Notes under the pieces: model-generated
The model's database searches: none
What the model was told of the DNA's origin: nothing
The model's input: only the letters and a program-made list of their open reading frames with translations
In this document: positions 27,638 through 36,735 of the stretch, in pieces
Layout of the letters: each line of letters opens with the position of its first letter
Position numbering within the stretch: position 1 is the stretch's first letter
NCBI RefSeq assembly: GCF_040448675.1
Contig: NZ_CP159289.1
Coordinates: 4,819,001 to 4,883,000, forward strand
Source: Dyadobacter sp. 676
GTDB taxonomy: Bacteria > Bacteroidota > Bacteroidia > Cytophagales > Spirosomataceae
Length of the DNA: 64,000 bases
Reading direction: 5' to 3'
Program-made: the position numbers and the translations under genes

Positions 27638-27643
27638 TCCGGA

Positions 27644-28349
27644 ATGTCAAAATATAAATACCTCAAAGAACAGGTTTACGAAGCCAATATGGAAATTCCG
27701 GGGGGAAGACCTGGCGATCGTAACCTTTGGAAATGTAAGCGGTATCGACCGGGCGGAAGGCGTAGTAGCCATCAAGCCGAGCGGCGTACCCTACCACCGA
27801 CTGAAAGCCGACGACATCGTGGTTGTGGACCTCGACAATAGGATTGTGGAGGGGAATATGCGGCCGTCATCGGATACGAAAACGCATACGCTGCTTTACA
27901 AACACTTCCCGGCGATCGGGGGCGTGTGCCATACGCATTCCACCTATGCCGTAGCGTGGGCACAGGCGATCCGGCCTATCCCGAACCTCGGGACCACGCA
28001 TGCCGACCATCTTACGGCGTCCATCCCGATAACGGAAGTGATGTCCGATGAAATGATCCTGCGCGACTACGAACTGGAAACCGGAAACCAGATCCTGAAC
28101 CTGTTTGCAAAGGAAAATCTGAGTTATGAAGAAGTGGAAATGGTGCTTGTAGCCTGTCATGGCCCGTTTACCTGGGGAAAAGACCCGGGCAAAGCCATTT
28201 ATAATTCAATCGTGCTGGAAGAGATCGCGAAAATGGCCTATCTCACATTGCAGATTAATCCGGCCGCGACGACGATCAAGCAAAGTCTGATCGACAAGCA
28301 TTATTTCAGGAAGCATGGTAAAGACGCCTACTATGGGCAAGGCTGCTAG
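27644..28349 (+). CDS. araD: L-ribulose-5-phosphate 4-epimerase (frameshifted in this sequence)
   Basis: The enzyme converts L-ribulose 5-phosphate to D-xylulose 5-phosphate, the last step of the operon. The frame from ATG 27644 reads KYLKEQVYEANMEIPGG and then becomes nonsense; the correct sequence continues in the next frame (FGNVSGIDRAEGVVAIKPSGVPY, SSDTKTHTLLYKHF, CHTHSTYAVAWAQA with the Zn-binding His pair, GTTHADHLTASIPITEVM, HGPFTWGK). Removing one G from the six at 27700-27705 restores MEIPGEDLAIVTFGNVSG and a 234-residue protein of standard length. A homopolymer overcall is most likely, since losing AraD would leave a toxic sugar-phosphate dead end. Confidence 0.92.
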
Positions 28350-29242: not shown

Positions 29243-29632
29243 TCAAAGAGCCAGTTTCTTTTTGAGAAACGGGATTTCGAGCGGTTTGGGTAGCAGGTCG
29301 ATGATGTGCCGGCTCGCCCGGGCTTTCTCGATGTCGCGGGTGTCGATGGTCGATGAAAGCATGAATATCCTGATTTTCTGCCGGATACTTTCAGGAAGCT
29401 TGTCGAACTCGTCGATGAATTCGAAGCCGTTCATGTCGGGCATTTGGAGATCGAGCAGGATAACGGTATCGGGCAGGCTGCCGGCCTGGCCGATGAGGTG
29501 TTTGAGGGCGTCGCGCGCCGAATTGAAAGTTTTGACCGAATTTGTAATGCCGCTTTTGATCAATAGCTTTTCGTAGATGAACAGGTCGAATGCGCTGTCA
29601 TCTATCAAAAAGAAGTTAAGCAGTGGCTCCAT
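29243..29632 (-). CDS. Single-domain response regulator (CheY-like receiver)
   Basis: The protein has 129 residues, all one receiver domain. The acidic pair is IDDS (D11, D12), the phospho-acceptor Asp61 is in ILLDLQMPDMNG, the conserved Ser/Thr is in MLSST and Lys116 is in LLPKPLE. There is no output domain, so it passes phosphate or binds a partner. Its closest known relatives are the lone receivers that sit beside hybrid kinases in Bacteroidota. It is the last gene of the five-gene operon, 6 bases after the receiver-kinase gene. Confidence 0.9.
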   Translation of the reverse strand: MEPLLNFFLIDDSAFDLFIYEKLLIKSGITNSVKTFNSARDALKHLIGQAGSLPDTVILLDLQMPDMNGFEFIDEFDKLPESIRQKIRIFMLSSTIDTRDIEKARASRHIIDLLPKPLEIPFLKKKLAL

Positions 29633-29638
29633 GTCGGG

Positions 29639-30730
29639 TTATTTGTTAATAGAAGGAATGTTAATTTCAAAAATACTACCCTGGCCGATTTTTGAAGTTA
29701 CGCTGATTTCTCCTCCTAATTTCGAGATCGCCTCGTGTACAATGTAAAGTCCTATCCCTGAGCCGCTGTTGGTCGCGCCTGCACGGTAAAACATTTTGAA
29801 AATTTTGTCCTGATCGGATTCCTTAATACCTGTTCCGTTGTCTTCTACTATGATTTTGGCCTCCGACGGCGTCGATTTCACGGTCAGGTGCACAAACGGG
29901 TCCGGCTTGGATTTATCCTGGAATTTGATCGCGTTGTTGATCAGGTTATTGAAAATGATCCGCAGCTTCATCACGTCCGAATGAAACACGCCGTCCTGCT
30001 GGATATCGGTGGTCATTTTCAGGTTGCCGTATTCGGGCAGGTATTGAATGGTCGCCTGCACCTCCGTTACCAGCTCCTCGAAGCTGATATCGGTGACGAC
30101 GGGCACACCGCGGGCATTTTTGTAATAGTCGATGATGTTGATGATGAACGTATCCAGCTTTTTCACCGACTGCCGGATTAGTTCCAGATATTCATTCTGC
30201 GATTTGACGTCCTCTTCGAGCAATGCGAGGTTCACAATGCCGAGCACCGACATCAGCGGCGCGCGCAGGTCGTGCGAGGCGCTGTACACAAATTTATCCA
30301 GCTCTTCGTTCGCCTTTTGCAATTCGATGTTCCGCTGTTTCAGGTCTTCGCGGGTTTTGTAAATATCGTAAGCATTGGAAATGGCATTTTCGACATATTT
30401 ATAATCCCAGGGTTTGTCGATGAACCTGAAAACTTCGCCTTTGTTGATCGCGTCGATGGCCGCGCCGATGTCCGTATGCCCTGTGATAAGGATACGGATC
30501 GGTTTCGGGAATTTGACCCTGATTTTCTCGAAAAACTGGACGCCCGTCATCACCGGCATCCGCTGGTCGGCCAGGATGATACAGAAATCCTTCTCTTCCA
30601 GCATTTGCTCTGCTTCCACTACCGAGGAGGTGATCGTGATATCGTATTGCTTGCGGAAGGAAGCCTTGAACGAATGCAGATTGTGCTCCTCGTCGTCAAT
30701 GTACAGAATGGTTATCGCTTTTTCGCTCAT
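29639..30730 (-). CDS. Receiver-histidine kinase hybrid
   Basis: The protein has 363 residues. An N-terminal receiver domain (1-120; YIDDE, Asp55 in LADQRMPVMTG, Lys106 in IDKPW) is joined by a coiled coil (about 123-145) to a HisKA domain with His153 in YSASHDLRAPLMSVLG. The HATPase domain shows NNLINNAIKFQD (N box), DNGTGI (G1) and GSGIGLYIVHEA (G2). There is no membrane segment, so it is cytoplasmic and probably takes phosphate or input from the 7TM kinase upstream. Its ATG overlaps the stop of that kinase by 4 bases (ATGA). Confidence 0.93.
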   Translation of the reverse strand: MSEKAITILYIDDEEHNLHSFKASFRKQYDITITSSVVEAEQMLEEKDFCIILADQRMPVMTGVQFFEKIRVKFPKPIRILITGHTDIGAAIDAINKGEVFRFIDKPWDYKYVENAISNAYDIYKTREDLKQRNIELQKANEELDKFVYSASHDLRAPLMSVLGIVNLALLEEDVKSQNEYLELIRQSVKKLDTFIINIIDYYKNARGVPVVTDISFEELVTEVQATIQYLPEYGNLKMTTDIQQDGVFHSDVMKLRIIFNNLINNAIKFQDKSKPDPFVHLTVKSTPSEAKIIVEDNGTGIKESDQDKIFKMFYRAGATNSGSGIGLYIVHEAISKLGGEISVTSKIGQGSIFEINIPSINK

Positions 30731-32904
30731 TGAAAATCAGGGATTGGGCGGGCTTTTCTTTTAACCGGAAGCGTGATCAGGAATTCTGTTCCCTCACCTA
30801 CCTCCGTGTTAACTTGAATATTACCGCTGTGAACTTCGATAATTTTAAAGACAATTGAAAGCCCGAGTCCGGTACCGTCGCCGACCTGCTTTGTGGTGAA
30901 GAAGGGTTCGAAAATCTTCGCGCGGACCTCCGGTGTCATGCCGGGACCGTTGTCGCGGATCGATATCGCCACGGTTTCGGGATCTTTCAACCAGGATTTC
31001 ACCCAGATAGTCGGTGTTTTGCTCTGGTGTTTTTCCTTTTGCAAGGCATAGATGGAGTTGGTGAGAATATTCATAAAAACCTGGTTGAGCTTGCCTGCGT
31101 AGCATTCGATGCTCGGTATGTTGCCGAGTTCCTTTACGAGCGTAATTGAATTCCCCATCTGGTAGTTGAGGATAATGAGTGTGGATTCGATTCCCTCGTT
31201 GATATTGACCAGATTAAGGTCGGTTTCATCCACCCGCGAGAATATCTTCAGGCCCTTCACGATCTCGACAGTCCGGTGGGCGCCGTCTTCCATGCCTTTC
31301 AGCAACGTGCCGAGCTCCGTTTTGAGATAATCCAGATCGAGGTCTTCTTTAAGCCGTTCGATTTCCTTCACCTTGTCCTGAAGTTGTTCCAGCGAACCGA
31401 CTTCCCGGATGCCGTCGTAGGAGTCCAGGATTTCCAACACATCGTCGATGTCTCTCCTTAGCGGCCGGATATTGGAACTGACGAAGTTAATCGGGTTATT
31501 GATCTCGTGCGCGATACCCGCCGTGAGCTGACCGAGCGACGCCATTTTTTCCGAGTCGATCAGTTGTGTCTGGGCGTCTTTTAGTTTGGTAAGTGTAAGG
31601 TTGAGCTCGTTGTTGGCAAATTGTAACTCCGCGGTTCTTTCATTCACGCTTTTTTCAAGGAAAGCGTTTTGTTCCAGAATGATTTTTTCGTTCTCCATGG
31701 AAATACGTAGCGCCTGGGCCTGCGAAGCTTCTTTCTCTTTTTTCAGAATGTTGATTTTATCTGCAAGTGCAAAAGATAGCAAAATAACTTCTATGGTTGC
31801 CCCTACCTGCTGTGTGTAATTTGTGAACATGTTGTAAGGCAGGATATTGAGATTACGGAGTGTGTACAACACGATACCGATCAGGAACATTATCCAGGCC
31901 ACAAGATAGAATTTAGCCGGACGGTAACCTCTGAGTGAAAGCTGGATCGCAACCGCCAGAACAAGCAGGCAGGCGGCAACTCCGGTTACGTCGATAACCC
32001 GGTAGCTAAGCCTTTGCATTCCTAACAGGTTAAAAAGTATTGCAAATCCGTAGGAGACGAAAATGAGGGTCAGTACTTTGTGTATCACCGGCGAATTTTC
32101 CCTGCTATGCAGGAAATTCTGCATAAACAGCACAGCAAAACTTCCCGCCAGGGACGGGAAAATCCGTATTGCATAGACGTTGAACATCGGCAAATCGGGC
32201 CAGATGTATTTAAATGTGTAGCCCGTGATGGTCGTCTGCGTCAACCCGATGAAGAGAATATACAGCACATAATACAAATAGCTTTTTTCCCTGATCGAGA
32301 AGTACAGAAAGAAGTTGTACAGCATCATTACAGTGAGGATACCCATCTGTATCCCTGCGATGACCTCGTTCTTCAACGCAAATCGAAAAAAGCCCATCTC
32401 ACTTCGCACAAACAGCGGAAGTACGATTTGCTCACTCCCCAGGACCTTGAGATAGTATGTTTTCGATTGCCCCGGCGGGATATTCAGTTTGAACACCGTA
32501 TTCTGATGCTGTACTTCTCTGGCGGCGAAAGGTTCGTTCAGAGAGATCCTTTCCTGCCGGATCTGACCGTTTTCTTCGTTATAAATCGTGCAGAAATCAA
32601 TACGCGCGTTGGCGAGCTCGAAAAAAATATTGGGGTCTTTCGTTTCATTTCTGAGTGTAAACCTGATCCAGAAGGCGGAATTGCTGAGGCCGAAATTGGG
32701 CGTCTGCTCCTGATTGGGGACGAAGCGGCCGGACGATCTTACCTGCTGGAAAGTCAGGGTTCCCAGTGAGTCTTCAAGGATATCAACGTATTGACCAATG
32801 GAGATATCGCTACCCGAAAAGACGATTTCACCGGCACGGGATGCTTTGCCGAAAACCAGAAAGGTAAATAGAAGAAATAATATCCTGTAAAATTTTATAA
32901 CCAT
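30727..32904 (-). CDS. 7TM-DISM sensor histidine kinase
   Basis: The protein has 725 residues. A signal peptide (to about 24) is followed by a periplasmic 7TMR-DISMED2-like beta domain (about 27-165, with [14 protein letters not shown]), seven transmembrane helices (about 180-385), a coiled coil (390-450) and a kinase core with His466 in [31 protein letters not shown] (N box), DNGPGM and [15 protein letters not shown]2 domains are thought to bind carbohydrate-like or other small ligands in the periplasm. The protein overlaps the GNAT-like gene upstream by 10 bases and the receiver-kinase downstream by 4, so it is co-translated with both. The ligand is unknown. Confidence 0.93.
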
Positions 32905-33587
32905 CTGGCGATATCATAAATGATTGTTAATTCCCCTCTGCGCCCGTTTTCAGTCACCGTTTGCTTTGGATTTTCTCTGAGGCTAAAAATTTTTTCCCTT
33001 TCCTCGTCCGTTGCGACAGGCAAGTTTACCAGGTCCCTGGCGATGAGTGAGGTCGCGATAAGTCCTTCTTTGGGATAGTAAAAAGTCCCATTGTTTCCCA
33101 GATCTTTTAGCACCTCAAAACCGATCCGCTCGCTCATCAGTAATGTAATCGGGGAGCATAATGCAAGGAGATGCTTAATCCCGACGAGGCCGGAAACGGC
33201 CATTGCGATTCTGCACAGGTATAAACTGCCTATTCCGTATCCGGCTACTTCCCTTGAATTAAAAAGGCCGCAAAATTCGGCTACGTTGTAATCGCCGATG
33301 GCGTCCACATAGCTGTAAATCCTTTTGTCGATTTTTGCGATGGCATCTTCCATCGGCATTTTAAGATTTGGCGAGCGTACCTGTACACGGGTACCTCCGT
33401 AAATCTTGCTGCCGTCTTCCGATTCAACGATCAGTACATACGTATTAGGATCTTCGAGCCAGTTATGTACGGCCGAAGTAACCTGTTTTATCCCGTAAGC
33501 CTCTAACACTTTTCGGTGACCTTCCGCGTATCTGAGACTGGTCTCGATGTCGTCTGATGCGCGGTATCCTTTAATGCGAGCTACCAT
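32895..33587 (-). CDS. GNAT-fold protein resembling N-acyl amino acid or autoinducer synthases
   Basis: The protein has 230 residues and no signal peptide. The N-terminal half carries NTYVLIVESEDGSKIYGGTRVQVRSP, like the strand 'expressed to cofactor' region of acyltransferases. The central VAEFCGLFNSREVAGYGIGSLYLCRIAMAVSGL contains a GNAT-type R-x-x-G-x-G motif (REVAGYG), followed by MSERIGFEVL, the common late GNAT segment. The layout recalls FeeM or LuxI-like N-acyltransferases, but the LuxI catalytic residues are not clearly present. The substrate is unknown. It lies 6 bases after the E1-nitroreductase gene and overlaps the 7TM kinase by 10, which ties it to both. Confidence 0.6.
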   Translation of the reverse strand: MVARIKGYRASDDIETSLRYAEGHRKVLEAYGIKQVTSAVHNWLEDPNTYVLIVESEDGSKIYGGTRVQVRSPNLKMPMEDAIAKIDKRIYSYVDAIGDYNVAEFCGLFNSREVAGYGIGSLYLCRIAMAVSGLVGIKHLLALCSPITLLMSERIGFEVLKDLGNNGTFYYPKEGLIATSLIARDLVNLPVATDEEREKIFSLRENPKQTVTENGRRGELTIIYDIARWL

Positions 33588-33593
33588 TTATTA

Positions 33594-35915
33594 TCAAAGG
33601 TTTACGATAAAAAGTGTCTCTTCAAGTGGTAATCTGTAACTTTTTATCTCTGGTTTTGGTGCACTGGCAATTTTGAACAGGAACACCTCTGCAAGATTAT
33701 CTTCAAACGGAACGAGTTTCATAAATTTTTCCCGCAAATCCTGCAATTTTAAGCTTTCCGCTTCATCCAGGCCGGTCCCATTGCCCCTGGTCACCCTGGG
33801 GAATATATAAAACGGGGAAATTAACGGATGGATCGCAAATTGCAATTCTTCTGCTTTCAGCCAAAGCCGTTGCATGGATACTCCTCCCCAAAAGAAATCC
33901 GGATAGTCGTATCTCGGCATTGTGATCATACCCAGGGCCGATGCAGTCTTCACCGTGGTCCGGGCAACGTCGATCAGTGCCCCGCCTCCCTGAATGCTTT
34001 TTAAGCCTTTGGCAACTTCTTCGTCCCGGATGATCGAAAGTGCCGTCATTTGCCCTTTGGTCATGCCCAACGTCCGGATATCGATCCCGTCTCTGGATTT
34101 TTCAGCATCGGCCGGGGACCATTTCATTTCCCTTTCAACAAAATCCCGGTGGCCATTGGGGTTTAAAAGTCTTATCCGGTCACATTCTCCGATAATTTCT
34201 GCGAGTGCGAGCATTTGTTCCCTGTCGTCAAAATAGTGGAACCGGGCACCTTCCACGCTTTCGGCGGCCGTCCGTAACGCTTCAAATTCTTCGGCAGAAA
34301 TTGGTACTGGGGTAGAAGGGTTCCTGTTGGTGCAACGCTCGAATATCACCGCGACCGATTGTGGCGAAAAAACCGGTGATGTATTTGCGGCCGCACCGTT
34401 ATCTGCAAACGTAATGACCGCGATCAGCGTAGATTCCTGCCCCAGCGGGAACAATTCCGCCCGGATACGCAGCCCTGCTTCATTGCTTTTCAGGACCAGG
34501 TTCTCGTACGCAGCCCCAAACGAGATGTTCGATGCGATCTGGTCGAAATCACCGAAAGAGTAGGAGCGGTAGCGGTCATGGAACAAATGCAGCCTGCCGT
34601 TCCGGTAAAGCCATTTCCACGGCTGGTCGTTTCCGGTTGAAGGGGCATGGCATGCCGCGTTTACAATCTCTTTTAAAATAGCTTCGTCGATTACTCCGGA
34701 AGGTTGCCCGGCAGCCAACGAATCGGCCACGCGAATAGCATCGTTCAAATCGAACGGTTCGAAAGGATTGCCGGGATCCGACGTTTCCGGCTTTGGCGAT
34801 TTGTTGCCCACAAGCTCTTCAAGATCGACATAATACCTGCCCGATTCGCTAAACTGATCGAGCAGGATGCGGCGGCACACGTCGCTGACGACACCTCCGC
34901 CCAAGGTCACCGCGCTGGCAAGTTGCGGCCATGTTCCAATGCTCTGTCCGATCTCCATCAGCGAAACCTTGCCTCTTTTCGATGCGTTGGCCGCATTCAC
35001 GATCCGGAGCACGAGCGGAAGCCTGTCTTCTTCGGAGATATGTTCGAATTTTTCCAGCGGGAGGCCTTGCAGGAGCCCATGGAGAATGGGCCGGTTCGGT
35101 TCGTTGTCAAACCGTTCCACGTCGAGCATTCCCCGGTCGCTCGTTTCCATGACGACCGGTATGGCCAGCTGGGCGGCGCGGAGCCGGCAGTTGATTTTCA
35201 GTGCCATATCGTCGCATTCGTCGATGAGGATATCCAGTTTGCCGCCATCGAGCAGAAACCCGTCCAGGTTTGCTTTGTCAATGCCCTCCGGAAAGCATTC
35301 AACCGTCAGGAAAGGGTCGATCTCGGCAATTTCCCGGGCGGTAACAATGCATTTGTTAATGCCGATGTTGTGCAGCCCTGTGCGTATACGGTTAAGGTTA
35401 CTTAGTTCAATGGTGTCAAAATCAGCCAGTTTCAGCCTGCCGCATATTCGCTCGGTGGCGATGCTCAAAGCGACCGAGTGCCCGACTGACAGGCCGATAA
35501 TGCCAATGGAACGCCCCGAAAGTTCTTGCTGCTCGGCGGGCGTGATTTTAAACTGGTTCCGGCTGGTCCTGAGTTCAATGAATTCCGCTTCCGCTACGAC
35601 ATGCAAAAGGCGCCCGGACCAGGGATAGTAGATCCAGTGGCCTTCGGTGTCGGTATCCCTGCCAGCAGCCCATTCGCTGTAACGCTGTTCAACCTCAGCG
35701 GCGGTAAGCCGTTTTCTGGGGTTACGGATACGTATGAGTTCTTTTTTCTGGGAAGCAAATAAATCCAGGATGGTTTTGCCGCGATAGTCTTCGATGAACG
35801 AAAGAAACTTTTCTTTATCTGCGTAGCGCTCTTTGGAGATGAAAACCGGTTTGTAGATATGGTTATTCTCTGTGTCGTGGTACATTTTAGAATAATTGTG
35901 AAGGCTATCTTTCAA
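33594..35915 (-). CDS. Rv1355c-like fusion of E1/ThiF adenylyltransferase and nitroreductase-like domain
   Basis: The protein has 773 residues. Residues about 125-350 form an E1/ThiF/MoeB fold: GIIGLSVGHSVAL (nucleotide loop, G141-x-x-x-G145), KLADFDTIELSNLNRIRTG with the conserved NLNR at 173-176, and LIDECDD at about 230-236. No CxxC zinc pairs are visible. Residues about 395-773 are nitroreductase-like: AACHAPSTGNDQPWKWLYR (422-437, FMN-site motif) and GMITMPRYDYPDFFWGGVSMQRLWLKA. The same fusion is called Rv1355c or MoeY in Mycobacterium, where the function is unproven. E1 domains adenylate carboxylates and flavin domains do redox, so a modified small molecule or peptide is a fair guess. 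First gene of the operon. Confidence 0.82.
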   Translation of the reverse strand: MKDSLHNYSKMYHDTENNHIYKPVFISKERYADKEKFLSFIEDYRGKTILDLFASQKKELIRIRNPRKRLTAAEVEQRYSEWAAGRDTDTEGHWIYYPWSGRLLHVVAEAEFIELRTSRNQFKITPAEQQELSGRSIGIIGLSVGHSVALSIATERICGRLKLADFDTIELSNLNRIRTGLHNIGINKCIVTAREIAEIDPFLTVECFPEGIDKANLDGFLLDGGKLDILIDECDDMALKINCRLRAAQLAIPVVMETSDRGMLDVERFDNEPNRPILHGLLQGLPLEKFEHISEEDRLPLVLRIVNAANASKRGKVSLMEIGQSIGTWPQLASAVTLGGGVVSDVCRRILLDQFSESGRYYVDLEELVGNKSPKPETSDPGNPFEPFDLNDAIRVADSLAAGQPSGVIDEAILKEIVNAACHAPSTGNDQPWKWLYRNGRLHLFHDRYRSYSFGDFDQIASNISFGAAYENLVLKSNEAGLRIRAELFPLGQESTLIAVITFADNGAAANTSPVFSPQSVAVIFERCTNRNPSTPVPISAEEFEALRTAAESVEGARFHYFDDREQMLALAEIIGECDRIRLLNPNGHRDFVEREMKWSPADAEKSRDGIDIRTLGMTKGQMTALSIIRDEEVAKGLKSIQGGGALIDVARTTVKTASALGMITMPRYDYPDFFWGGVSMQRLWLKAEELQFAIHPLISPFYIFPRVTRGNGTGLDEAESLKLQDLREKFMKLVPFEDNLAEVFLFKIASAPKPEIKSYRLPLEETLFIVNL

Positions 35916-36270: not shown

Positions 36271-36735
36271 ATGGAAAAAGGAAAAATAAGCGTACTGTAC
36301 GTGGATGATGAAATCAACAACCTTAACTCATTCAAGGCCGCTTTCAGGAGAGACTTTAATATTTTAATCGCTACCTCGGGGCGGGAAGGCCTGGAACTTC
36401 TGAAGCACAATGTGGTACATGTGATCATCACCGACCAACGGATGCCCGAAATGACCGGCGTCGATTTCCTGATCGAGGTCCTCAAAAATTACGCTGACCC
36501 CGTACGTATCCTGTTGACGGGCTATACGGACATTACAGCGGTGATCGACGCCGTGAACAAGGGGCATATTTATTACTATCTCAACAAGCCCTGGGACGAA
36601 CAGCAATTACGGATCATCATTAAAAACGCCTACGAGATCTTCCATTTGCGGGAAGAAAACAAGGAACTGATCGAAAAGCTGATCGATGTGAACGGGCAGC
36701 TGGAATTTCTTCTCCGACAGAACCTGCTTTCCTAG
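36271..36735 (+). CDS. Single-domain response regulator, paralogue of the hybrid kinase receiver
   Basis: The protein has 154 residues. The receiver keeps LYVDDE, Asp55 in ITDQRMPEMTG, LLTGYTD and Lys106 in LNKPWDE, then a C-terminal coiled helix (EIFHLREENKELIEKLIDVNGQLEFLL). Residue numbering of the active site is identical to the receiver of the 363-residue hybrid at 30730, and long stretches are alike (NNLNSFKAAFRR against HNLHSFKASFRK, TDITAVIDAVNKGHI against TDIGAAIDAINKGEV). It is therefore a paralogue, transcribed divergently from the operon. It has no DNA-binding domain, so it probably works as a phosphate shuttle or protein-binding switch in the same pathway. Confidence 0.9.
   Translation: MEKGKISVLYVDDEINNLNSFKAAFRRDFNILIATSGREGLELLKHNVVHVIITDQRMPEMTGVDFLIEVLKNYADPVRILLTGYTDITAVIDAVNKGHIYYYLNKPWDEQQLRIIIKNAYEIFHLREENKELIEKLIDVNGQLEFLLRQNLLS

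Follow-up and report, generated by a model that had tools for sequence, protein, structure and literature searches.

The window analysed here, a stretch of 64,000 nucleotides in the 7.28-Mb single-contig genome of Dyadobacter sp. 676, encodes a block of genes in which two enzymes that resemble makers of N-acyl oxazolones adjoin a membrane sensor kinase and several receivers. The original prediction, made from the sequence alone, had described five closely packed genes, and both their order and their packing are borne out by the open reading frames (ORFs), which all lie on the minus strand, are intact from ATG to stop and are separated by 6, -10, -4 and 6 bases. The unit was nevertheless drawn too small, because a sixth gene, a lone receiver read in the opposite direction, also belongs to it and had been missed. 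The members of the block, and the region between its divergent genes, are:

33594..35885, minus strand: gene 1, TrzS-like enzyme, a ThiF/E1 cyclase fused to a nitroreductase-fold flavin mononucleotide (FMN) oxidase domain, 763 aa
32895..33587, minus strand: gene 2, TrzA-like N-acyltransferase, predicted GNAT fold of the FeeM/LuxI type, without a family model, 230 aa
30727..32904, minus strand: gene 3, DISMED2-7TM sensor histidine kinase (Pfam), candidate receptor, 725 aa
29639..30730, minus strand: gene 4, receiver plus histidine kinase protein (Pfam REC, HisKA, HATPase), 363 aa
29243..29632, minus strand: gene 5, lone receiver (Pfam REC, 49.8 bits), 129 aa
35886..36270, no strand: divergent intergenic region with A+T-rich conserved blocks (41 upstream regions aligned, and consensus scan)
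36271..36735, plus strand: divergent lone receiver, sixth member of the block (Pfam REC, 66.2 bits), 154 aa

Enzymes, sensor and receivers

The domains first named for genes 1 and 3-5 were recovered with Pfam: ThiF with a nitroreductase-like part; DISMED2, 7TM, HisKA and HATPase; REC, HisKA and HATPase; and a lone REC. Gene 1, whose start is more likely the ATG at 35885 than the TTG at 35915 (P0121, its database entry from the same genome, is 763 aa long), encodes a full-length member of the Rv1355c family (NCBIfam NF005901), with 847.6 bits against a cut-off of 476 and residues 6-764 aligned to model positions 2-720. Its ThiF domain scores 56 bits in Pfam and its nitroreductase domain 19.3 bits, below the cut-off of 23.5. 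Curated ThiF/MoeB-type models all stay far under their cut-offs (53.8 against 159, 44.6 against 266 and 34.8 against 376.55 bits), which speaks against a place in thiamine or molybdopterin synthesis. PADLOC gave only weak matches of the E1 part to E1-E2 defence models, for which reason a role in defence was dropped. Identity to plasmid-borne actinobacterial proteins of the Rv1355c family is 31-34% over 87-98% of the length. The adenylation residues G131, G135 and D225, the last from the E-C-D motif, are conserved in all 85 rows with a residue there. We infer that D225 is the equivalent of D217 in Mycobacterium smegmatis TrzS from an offset in numbering that holds for two of the three actinobacterial relatives; by the same offset, again in two of the three, R570 would be the counterpart of R540, and it is kept in six of seven aligned rows and lost in P0198. 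D217 and R540 are the residues mutated in the M. smegmatis enzyme (PMC12856293). In Dyadobacter tibetensis and D. jejuensis (L030, L032) the E1 part is kept and the nitroreductase part is barely (30 bits) or not detectable.

N-acyl oxazolones are made by OxzAB, which resembles TrzA plus TrzS and in which OxzB is also a fusion. As described in PMC12856293 (2025), Rv1356c/TrzA N-acylates tryptophan, and TrzS, of the Rv1355c family, cyclises the product with ATP and desaturates it with O2 to an N-acyl tryptazolone; TyzACB is described as a like pathway with tyrosine (PMC10404671, 2023). The Dyadobacter locus shares with TrzA/TrzS of Mycobacterium and Rhodococcus the curated family and domain order of gene 1 and an adjacent acyltransferase gene, but adds a 7TM-DISM kinase, a receiver-kinase and lone receivers. 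It also has predicted counterparts of the acyltransferase, ThiF cyclase and flavin oxidase with which TyzACB yields N-acyl oxazolones, although the Tyz enzymes are separate proteins (PMC10404671). The published chemistry of these families (PMC12856293, PMC10404671) supports well the early suggestion of a small molecule as the joint product of the two enzymes. That no function was known for the combination remains true of the enzymes plus the sensor, but not of the enzymes alone. What is new is the sensor partner, a DISMED2-7TM protein beside the synthase, the enzyme chemistry being already published. The word "kinase" is absent from the main texts of PMC12856293 and PMC10404671, and in the open-licence literature searched no title or displayed abstract joined the gene 2 synthase or the E1-oxidase to a 7TM receptor.

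The predicted structure of gene 2 (AlphaFold; predicted local distance difference test, pLDDT, of 91) is a GNAT fold closest to FeeM and to LuxI-type synthases dependent on coenzyme A (CoA), in line with the resemblance to N-acyl amino acid or autoinducer synthases proposed at the outset. The likeness to LuxI-type synthases such as BjaI and RpaI, and to FeeM, is one of predicted fold alone, gene 2 matching none of their Pfam models, and we file the protein as LuxI-like and not as a LuxI member. No LuxR-type DNA-binding regulator was found in the six proteins scanned. Neither gene 2 nor its profile found anything usable in Pfam, NCBIfam, PHROGs or PDB sequences, and a plasmid search with the synthase returned no matches. 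On one Nitratidesulfovibrio plasmid, FeeM, ThiF and nitroreductase domains occur in a single chain; one Streptomyces plasmid encodes an E1 protein with a weak GNAT-like front part, below Pfam cut-offs, and on another an E1 gene overlaps a gene annotated GNAT. The gene 2 profile had no significant match to the Nitratidesulfovibrio and Streptomyces fusions, and hhalign against the Rhodococcus neighbour of TrzS gave a probability of 2.4% and an E of 0.02, but these are weak tests, since one of the two sides consisted of one sequence only. In G344, three tandem TrzA-like domains are encoded by an ORF of 616 aa that runs into the contig end (L130:4593-6442).

Gene 3 matches PF07695 (178 bits), PF07696 (113 bits) and HATPase (87 bits), with HisKA at 25.8 bits, just below the cut-off of 26.9. 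With DISMED2, 7TM, HisKA including its histidine, and HATPase, it is a 7TMR-DISM histidine kinase. H466 of the sensor is present in 84 of 84 kinase-type rows, D55 and H153 of the receiver-kinase in 75 of 75, D61 of gene 5 in 50 of 50, and D55 of the divergent receiver in 84 of 84. The sensor kinase, receiver-kinase and lone receiver of the "three-part phosphorelay" proposed earlier are in place, but Pfam finds no Hpt domain in the proteins of genes 1-5, so that the phosphorelay itself is a guess; nor does it find a DNA-binding domain in the three receiver proteins of the block. The host genome encodes two DISMED2 proteins and one synthase, which makes it a remote chance that the two adjoin by accident. 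A likeness of the sensor to human WLS/TMEM87A was considered as a hint of lipid binding and was not used: the root-mean-square deviation is 14-18 Å, many unrelated seven-helix receptors score equally, and WLS is not among the 50 entries of the VIA listing. At one locus (L126:5326-14308), four tandem DISMED2-7TM sensor genes stand behind the E1-nitroreductase and the synthase.

Conservation of the synthase-sensor pair

The association of synthase and sensor was examined in four samples. First, a search seeded with the synthase confirmed 153 relatives, of which the best 80 loci were counted; 79 of the 80 are titled Bacteroidota, and all 80 have a DISMED2-7TM protein on the same strand within 3.2 kb of the synthase. 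The divergent receiver is found in 78 of these best 80 (both misses are contig ends), E1 in 75 (in 45 of them its ORF also matches nitroreductase, in one case at only 30 bits, and in 30 it does not), the receiver-kinase in 74 (two misses at contig ends and four real losses) and the gene 5-type lone receiver in 44. Second, the Rv1355c model was run against 247 genomes of the phylum: ten, Dyadobacter sp. 676 included, have a match of at least 146 bits covering the E1 part, all ten with an adjoining synthase and sensor, and the next 20 loci (at most 110 bits) have no synthase match. Third, among 194 genomes of the order the synthase occurs in 44, including six of six of the same genus and none of 11 others of the same family. 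Counting rows of at least 100 bits (44 rows in 43 genomes), the sensor lies within 3 kb downstream in 39, covering eight of nine families, or in 40 of 44 if one includes G387, whose sensor is truncated at a contig end (L137). Three of the misses (G347, G333, G344) stop at contig ends and G341 is a real exception; the threshold leaves aside the second rows of G343 and G370 (82 bits), G385 (44 bits) and fragments in G344 and G320. Fourth, of 345 genomes sampled from the class, 64 carry the synthase, and 59 of these lie outside the host's order and are spread over 20 families. In 57 of these 59 loci, from 19 of the 20 families, a sensor is encoded on the same strand within 3.5 kb; of the two misses, L219 is cut by a contig end and G610 (L253) is real. 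Among the 58 class loci other than G610, 50 have a divergent-type receiver nearby, 48 the receiver-kinase and 48 E1; in 30 of those 48 the E1 carries the nitroreductase part. The original prediction was to be refuted if its genes were not conserved together; for synthase and sensor, these samples did not refute it.

A Fisher test of co-occurrence, with a synthase in 29 of the 30 genomes whose sensor scores at least 350 bits, gave p 2e-22 but is uncorrected for kinship and uses a profile built from linked sensors. Sensor and synthase co-diverge once the divergence of the kinase part is accounted for, with partial correlations of 0.485 for the ectodomain and 0.695 for the 7TM part and none of 500 permutations as high. 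We give this no weight as evidence, because it can arise from shared descent and from the SpoIIE rows described below, in which the "kinase" columns lack homology.

Some loci of these samples have features of their own. A contig titled as a metagenome-assembled genome of Azovibrio restrictus (L050) carries the same block, with scores close to those of the Bacteroides-titled L052, and is probably misbinned. In Echinicola (L046:4875-8136), genes for a receiver-PglZ protein, which we take to be PorX-like, for TsaE and for a protein like alanine dehydrogenase lie ahead of the divergent receiver, and most Cyclobacteriaceae loci have ORFs of matching size in this place.

Variable enzymes, sensor outputs and flanking sequence

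Beside the pair, the middle enzyme changes: it may be an E1-nitroreductase, E1 alone, an oxidase linked to flavin adenine dinucleotide (FAD), or one of three kinds of methyltransferase. The FAD-linked oxidase replaces E1 in 12 loci, four from the best-80 set (L048, L053, L062, L082) and eight others (L118-L122, L127-L129); it was called by Pfam FAD_binding_4 in L053 only and elsewhere by tblastn or a three-sequence profile, and L129 shows no more than a piece of the synthase, where the contig ends. Seven of the ten class loci without an E1 match have a methyltransferase between synthase and sensor. It is of class I in L210, L215, L217, L227 and L239, of the ICMT/PEMT type in L209, and an O-methyltransferase (PF00891) in L233, where the contig begins just before the synthase and an E1 upstream is possible. 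Of the other three, L203 has nothing between synthase and sensor, and L205 and L219 are cut by contig ends. On a synthase tree of 73 rows, a quick tree without bootstraps, with long-branch warnings and built before the methyltransferase loci were found, the three-way label of the middle enzyme needs at least eight changes, and well-supported branches force three changes of the FAD label. Near the 20 unlinked control sensors (L146-L165), chosen for having no synthase row nearby so that its absence there is not a result, E1 and FAD-oxidase matches are absent from all 20.

These enzymes might converge on one kind of product. The methyltransferase loci might make methyl esters, and both cyclisation by E1 and methylation could remove or mask the free carboxylate. 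What the loci share may then be capped N-acyl amino acids, compounds whose chemistry would resemble that of an acyl-homoserine lactone (AHL). N-acyl alanine methyl esters of Roseovarius are capped N-acyl amino acids such as the methyltransferase loci might make, but PMC11580390 reports that they take no part in AHL signalling, and its abstract shows no link to 7TM sensors.

The output of the sensor varies as well. In some genomes the sensor beside the synthase ends in a SpoIIE phosphatase and not in a kinase. This was at one point seen as a swapped output on the same sensor, an idea rejected because the tree groups these proteins with unlinked SpoIIE-type sensors; judging from that grouping, they were probably recruited to the synthase separately.

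Upstream of gene 1, the -33/-7 promoter that had been proposed is the one observed feature not borne out: the sequence that matches it (GTTG-N21-TAATTTTG, 35975-35943) differs at one position and shows poor conservation across the 41 Dyadobacter-type upstream regions, and a second one-mismatch match at 36092-36061 falls within a better conserved block. Scans for sigma-70-type promoters (12 sites against 9.8 in shuffles) and for terminators (9 against 10.4) did not exceed shuffles, and promoters are not established. Elsewhere in the window, araD next to araA (27640-28349, plus strand) matches a 234-aa relative over two frames, the break being close to the start (residues 1-19 and 21-234); it is either frame-broken or affected by a small error in the single-contig assembly.

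Signal, output or antibiotic

We favour, at slightly better than even chances, the view of the operon as a small-molecule signalling module in which a synthase and a tailoring enzyme are joined by their cognate receptor in the membrane. Its fold and its published homologues suggest that the TrzA-like protein would move an acyl group from acyl-CoA or from an acyl carrier protein (acyl-ACP) onto an amino acid, probably an aromatic one. As in the TrzS family, the E1 domain would then adenylate the carboxylate and close the oxazolone ring, and the FMN domain would desaturate it with O2, so that the product, by analogy, is probably an N-acyl oxazolone. This neutral and membrane-permeant molecule, or its ring-opened form, would bind the DISMED2-7TM protein, and binding would alter the kinase activity at His466, with phosphate passing to the receiver-kinase and the lone receivers, as their domains and invariant residues suggest. 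That the sensor reads the product of the synthase is what we infer from the conserved association of their genes. If it does so, one would expect the pattern observed, in which the synthase-sensor pair is steady, the middle enzyme changes and one lineage has a different output; the pattern would be less expected if the sensor read an unrelated stress and only regulated the enzymes. In Vibrio, LuxM/LuxN and CqsA/CqsS pair a synthase with the membrane histidine kinase that reads its product; the arrangement in Dyadobacter is similar, but the synthase, the receptor domain and the chemistry differ, and binding is here presumed from gene association.

A signalling role for the molecules themselves has been put forward before: PMC12856293 names the role of oxazolones as a major question still to be resolved, remarks on their likeness to AHLs and proposes signalling because of c-di-GMP (cyclic diguanylate) genes beside trzAS. 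On three Rhodococcus plasmid regions (L115, L141, L145) a GGDEF gene stands two genes from the Rv1355c-family gene, resembling the c-di-GMP genes so reported (PMC12856293). No GGDEF gene was found beside the TrzS-family gene in three mycobacterial plasmid regions (L113, L114, L144), and the Nocardia region is unannotated. Extended to the class, the same reasoning describes a Bacteroidota signalling family in which a LuxI/FeeM-fold synthase would make N-acyl amino acids, an exchangeable enzyme would cap or modify them, and a DISMED2-7TM receptor with a kinase or SpoIIE-phosphatase output would read the molecule, diversity arising by enzyme swaps. We put this wider proposal forward tentatively, at somewhat under even chances.

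A number of observations weigh against a signalling module. Some genomes have the enzymes without the sensor, or the reverse: G341 (L124:3393-6477) has E1 and synthase adjoining a fatty acid desaturase gene and no 7TM sensor, G610 has a distant synthase beside E1 and no sensor, G275 has E1 and sensor but lacks the synthase, and in G343 a second, weaker paralogue of the synthase (84-85 bits; L132:4318-6269) neighbours a permease gene of the FtsX/MacB type and has no 7TM sensor close by. The counts are also less independent than they look, since genomes of one lineage are related, and since the synthase profile was itself built in part from five of the 59 class loci, which the E1-seeded search had already turned up. 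Some other genomes are rich in 7TM-DISM proteins, with up to 56 first-look candidates, which makes chance adjacency less remote there than in Dyadobacter. At E up to 1, none of 42 members of the gene 2 family matched the Pfam models of FeeM (PF21926) or of autoinducer synthase. The ectodomain of the sensor is similar to that of RetS; the Dyadobacter sensor differs from RetS and other 7TMR-DISM receptors in adjoining a synthase and lone receivers, and we know of no such combination for RetS. As for the product, tryptazolones are reported to be more abundant in cells than in the medium (PMC12856293), and ThiF and nitroreductase genes have been tied to N-acyl dehydrotyrosines, no oxazolone being seen in the account of PMC12479983, so that the final product here could be ring-opened.

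The alternative to be taken most seriously, though in our judgement an unlikely one, makes the lipid an output and not a signal: the 7TM kinase would sense an envelope or outside cue (a glycan, an ion or membrane stress) and control the production of a protective N-acyl oxazolone, which would account for regulator and enzymes sharing a locus. It fits less well with a sensor type that stays constant while the middle enzyme, and hence the product, varies, with a second sensor lineage of phosphatase output adjoining the synthase, and with receivers that carry no DNA-binding domain. An antibiotic-like product or a ring-opened N-acyl dehydro amino acid, with a sensor serving self-protection or the monitoring of the cell's own compound and not communication, seems to us improbable: antimicrobial N-acyl tyrosines are known (PMC12856293) and the dehydrotyrosines just mentioned are linked to ThiF and nitroreductase genes (PMC12479983), but the listed genes that flank the block in the window include none recognised as serving transport or immunity, and many loci have a middle enzyme that would eliminate the acid group. 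It is very improbable that the E1 enzyme serves thiamine or molybdopterin synthesis or protein conjugation with the kinases as unrelated neighbours, since, for all its E1/ThiF superfamily membership and its weak matches to E1-E2 defence models, it fits the Rv1355c model and not those of ThiF or MoeB, no carrier protein, E2 or JAB gene is among the proteins scanned, the genome holds another ThiF-family gene (269 bits), and the neighbourhood is conserved across many families.

If the class-wide signalling family is real, oxazolones would acquire a function, and 7TMR-DISM receptors would have a lipid-like ligand made by the cell itself. To our knowledge, the ligands of most of these receptors are unknown and acyl-type cell-cell signalling in Bacteroidota is poorly known. 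Because culturable environmental bacteria encode the synthase next to its candidate receptor, both the role of oxazolones and the ligand of a 7TMR-DISM receptor become directly testable, and a proven function would, given the share of class genomes that encode the synthase, reach many species.

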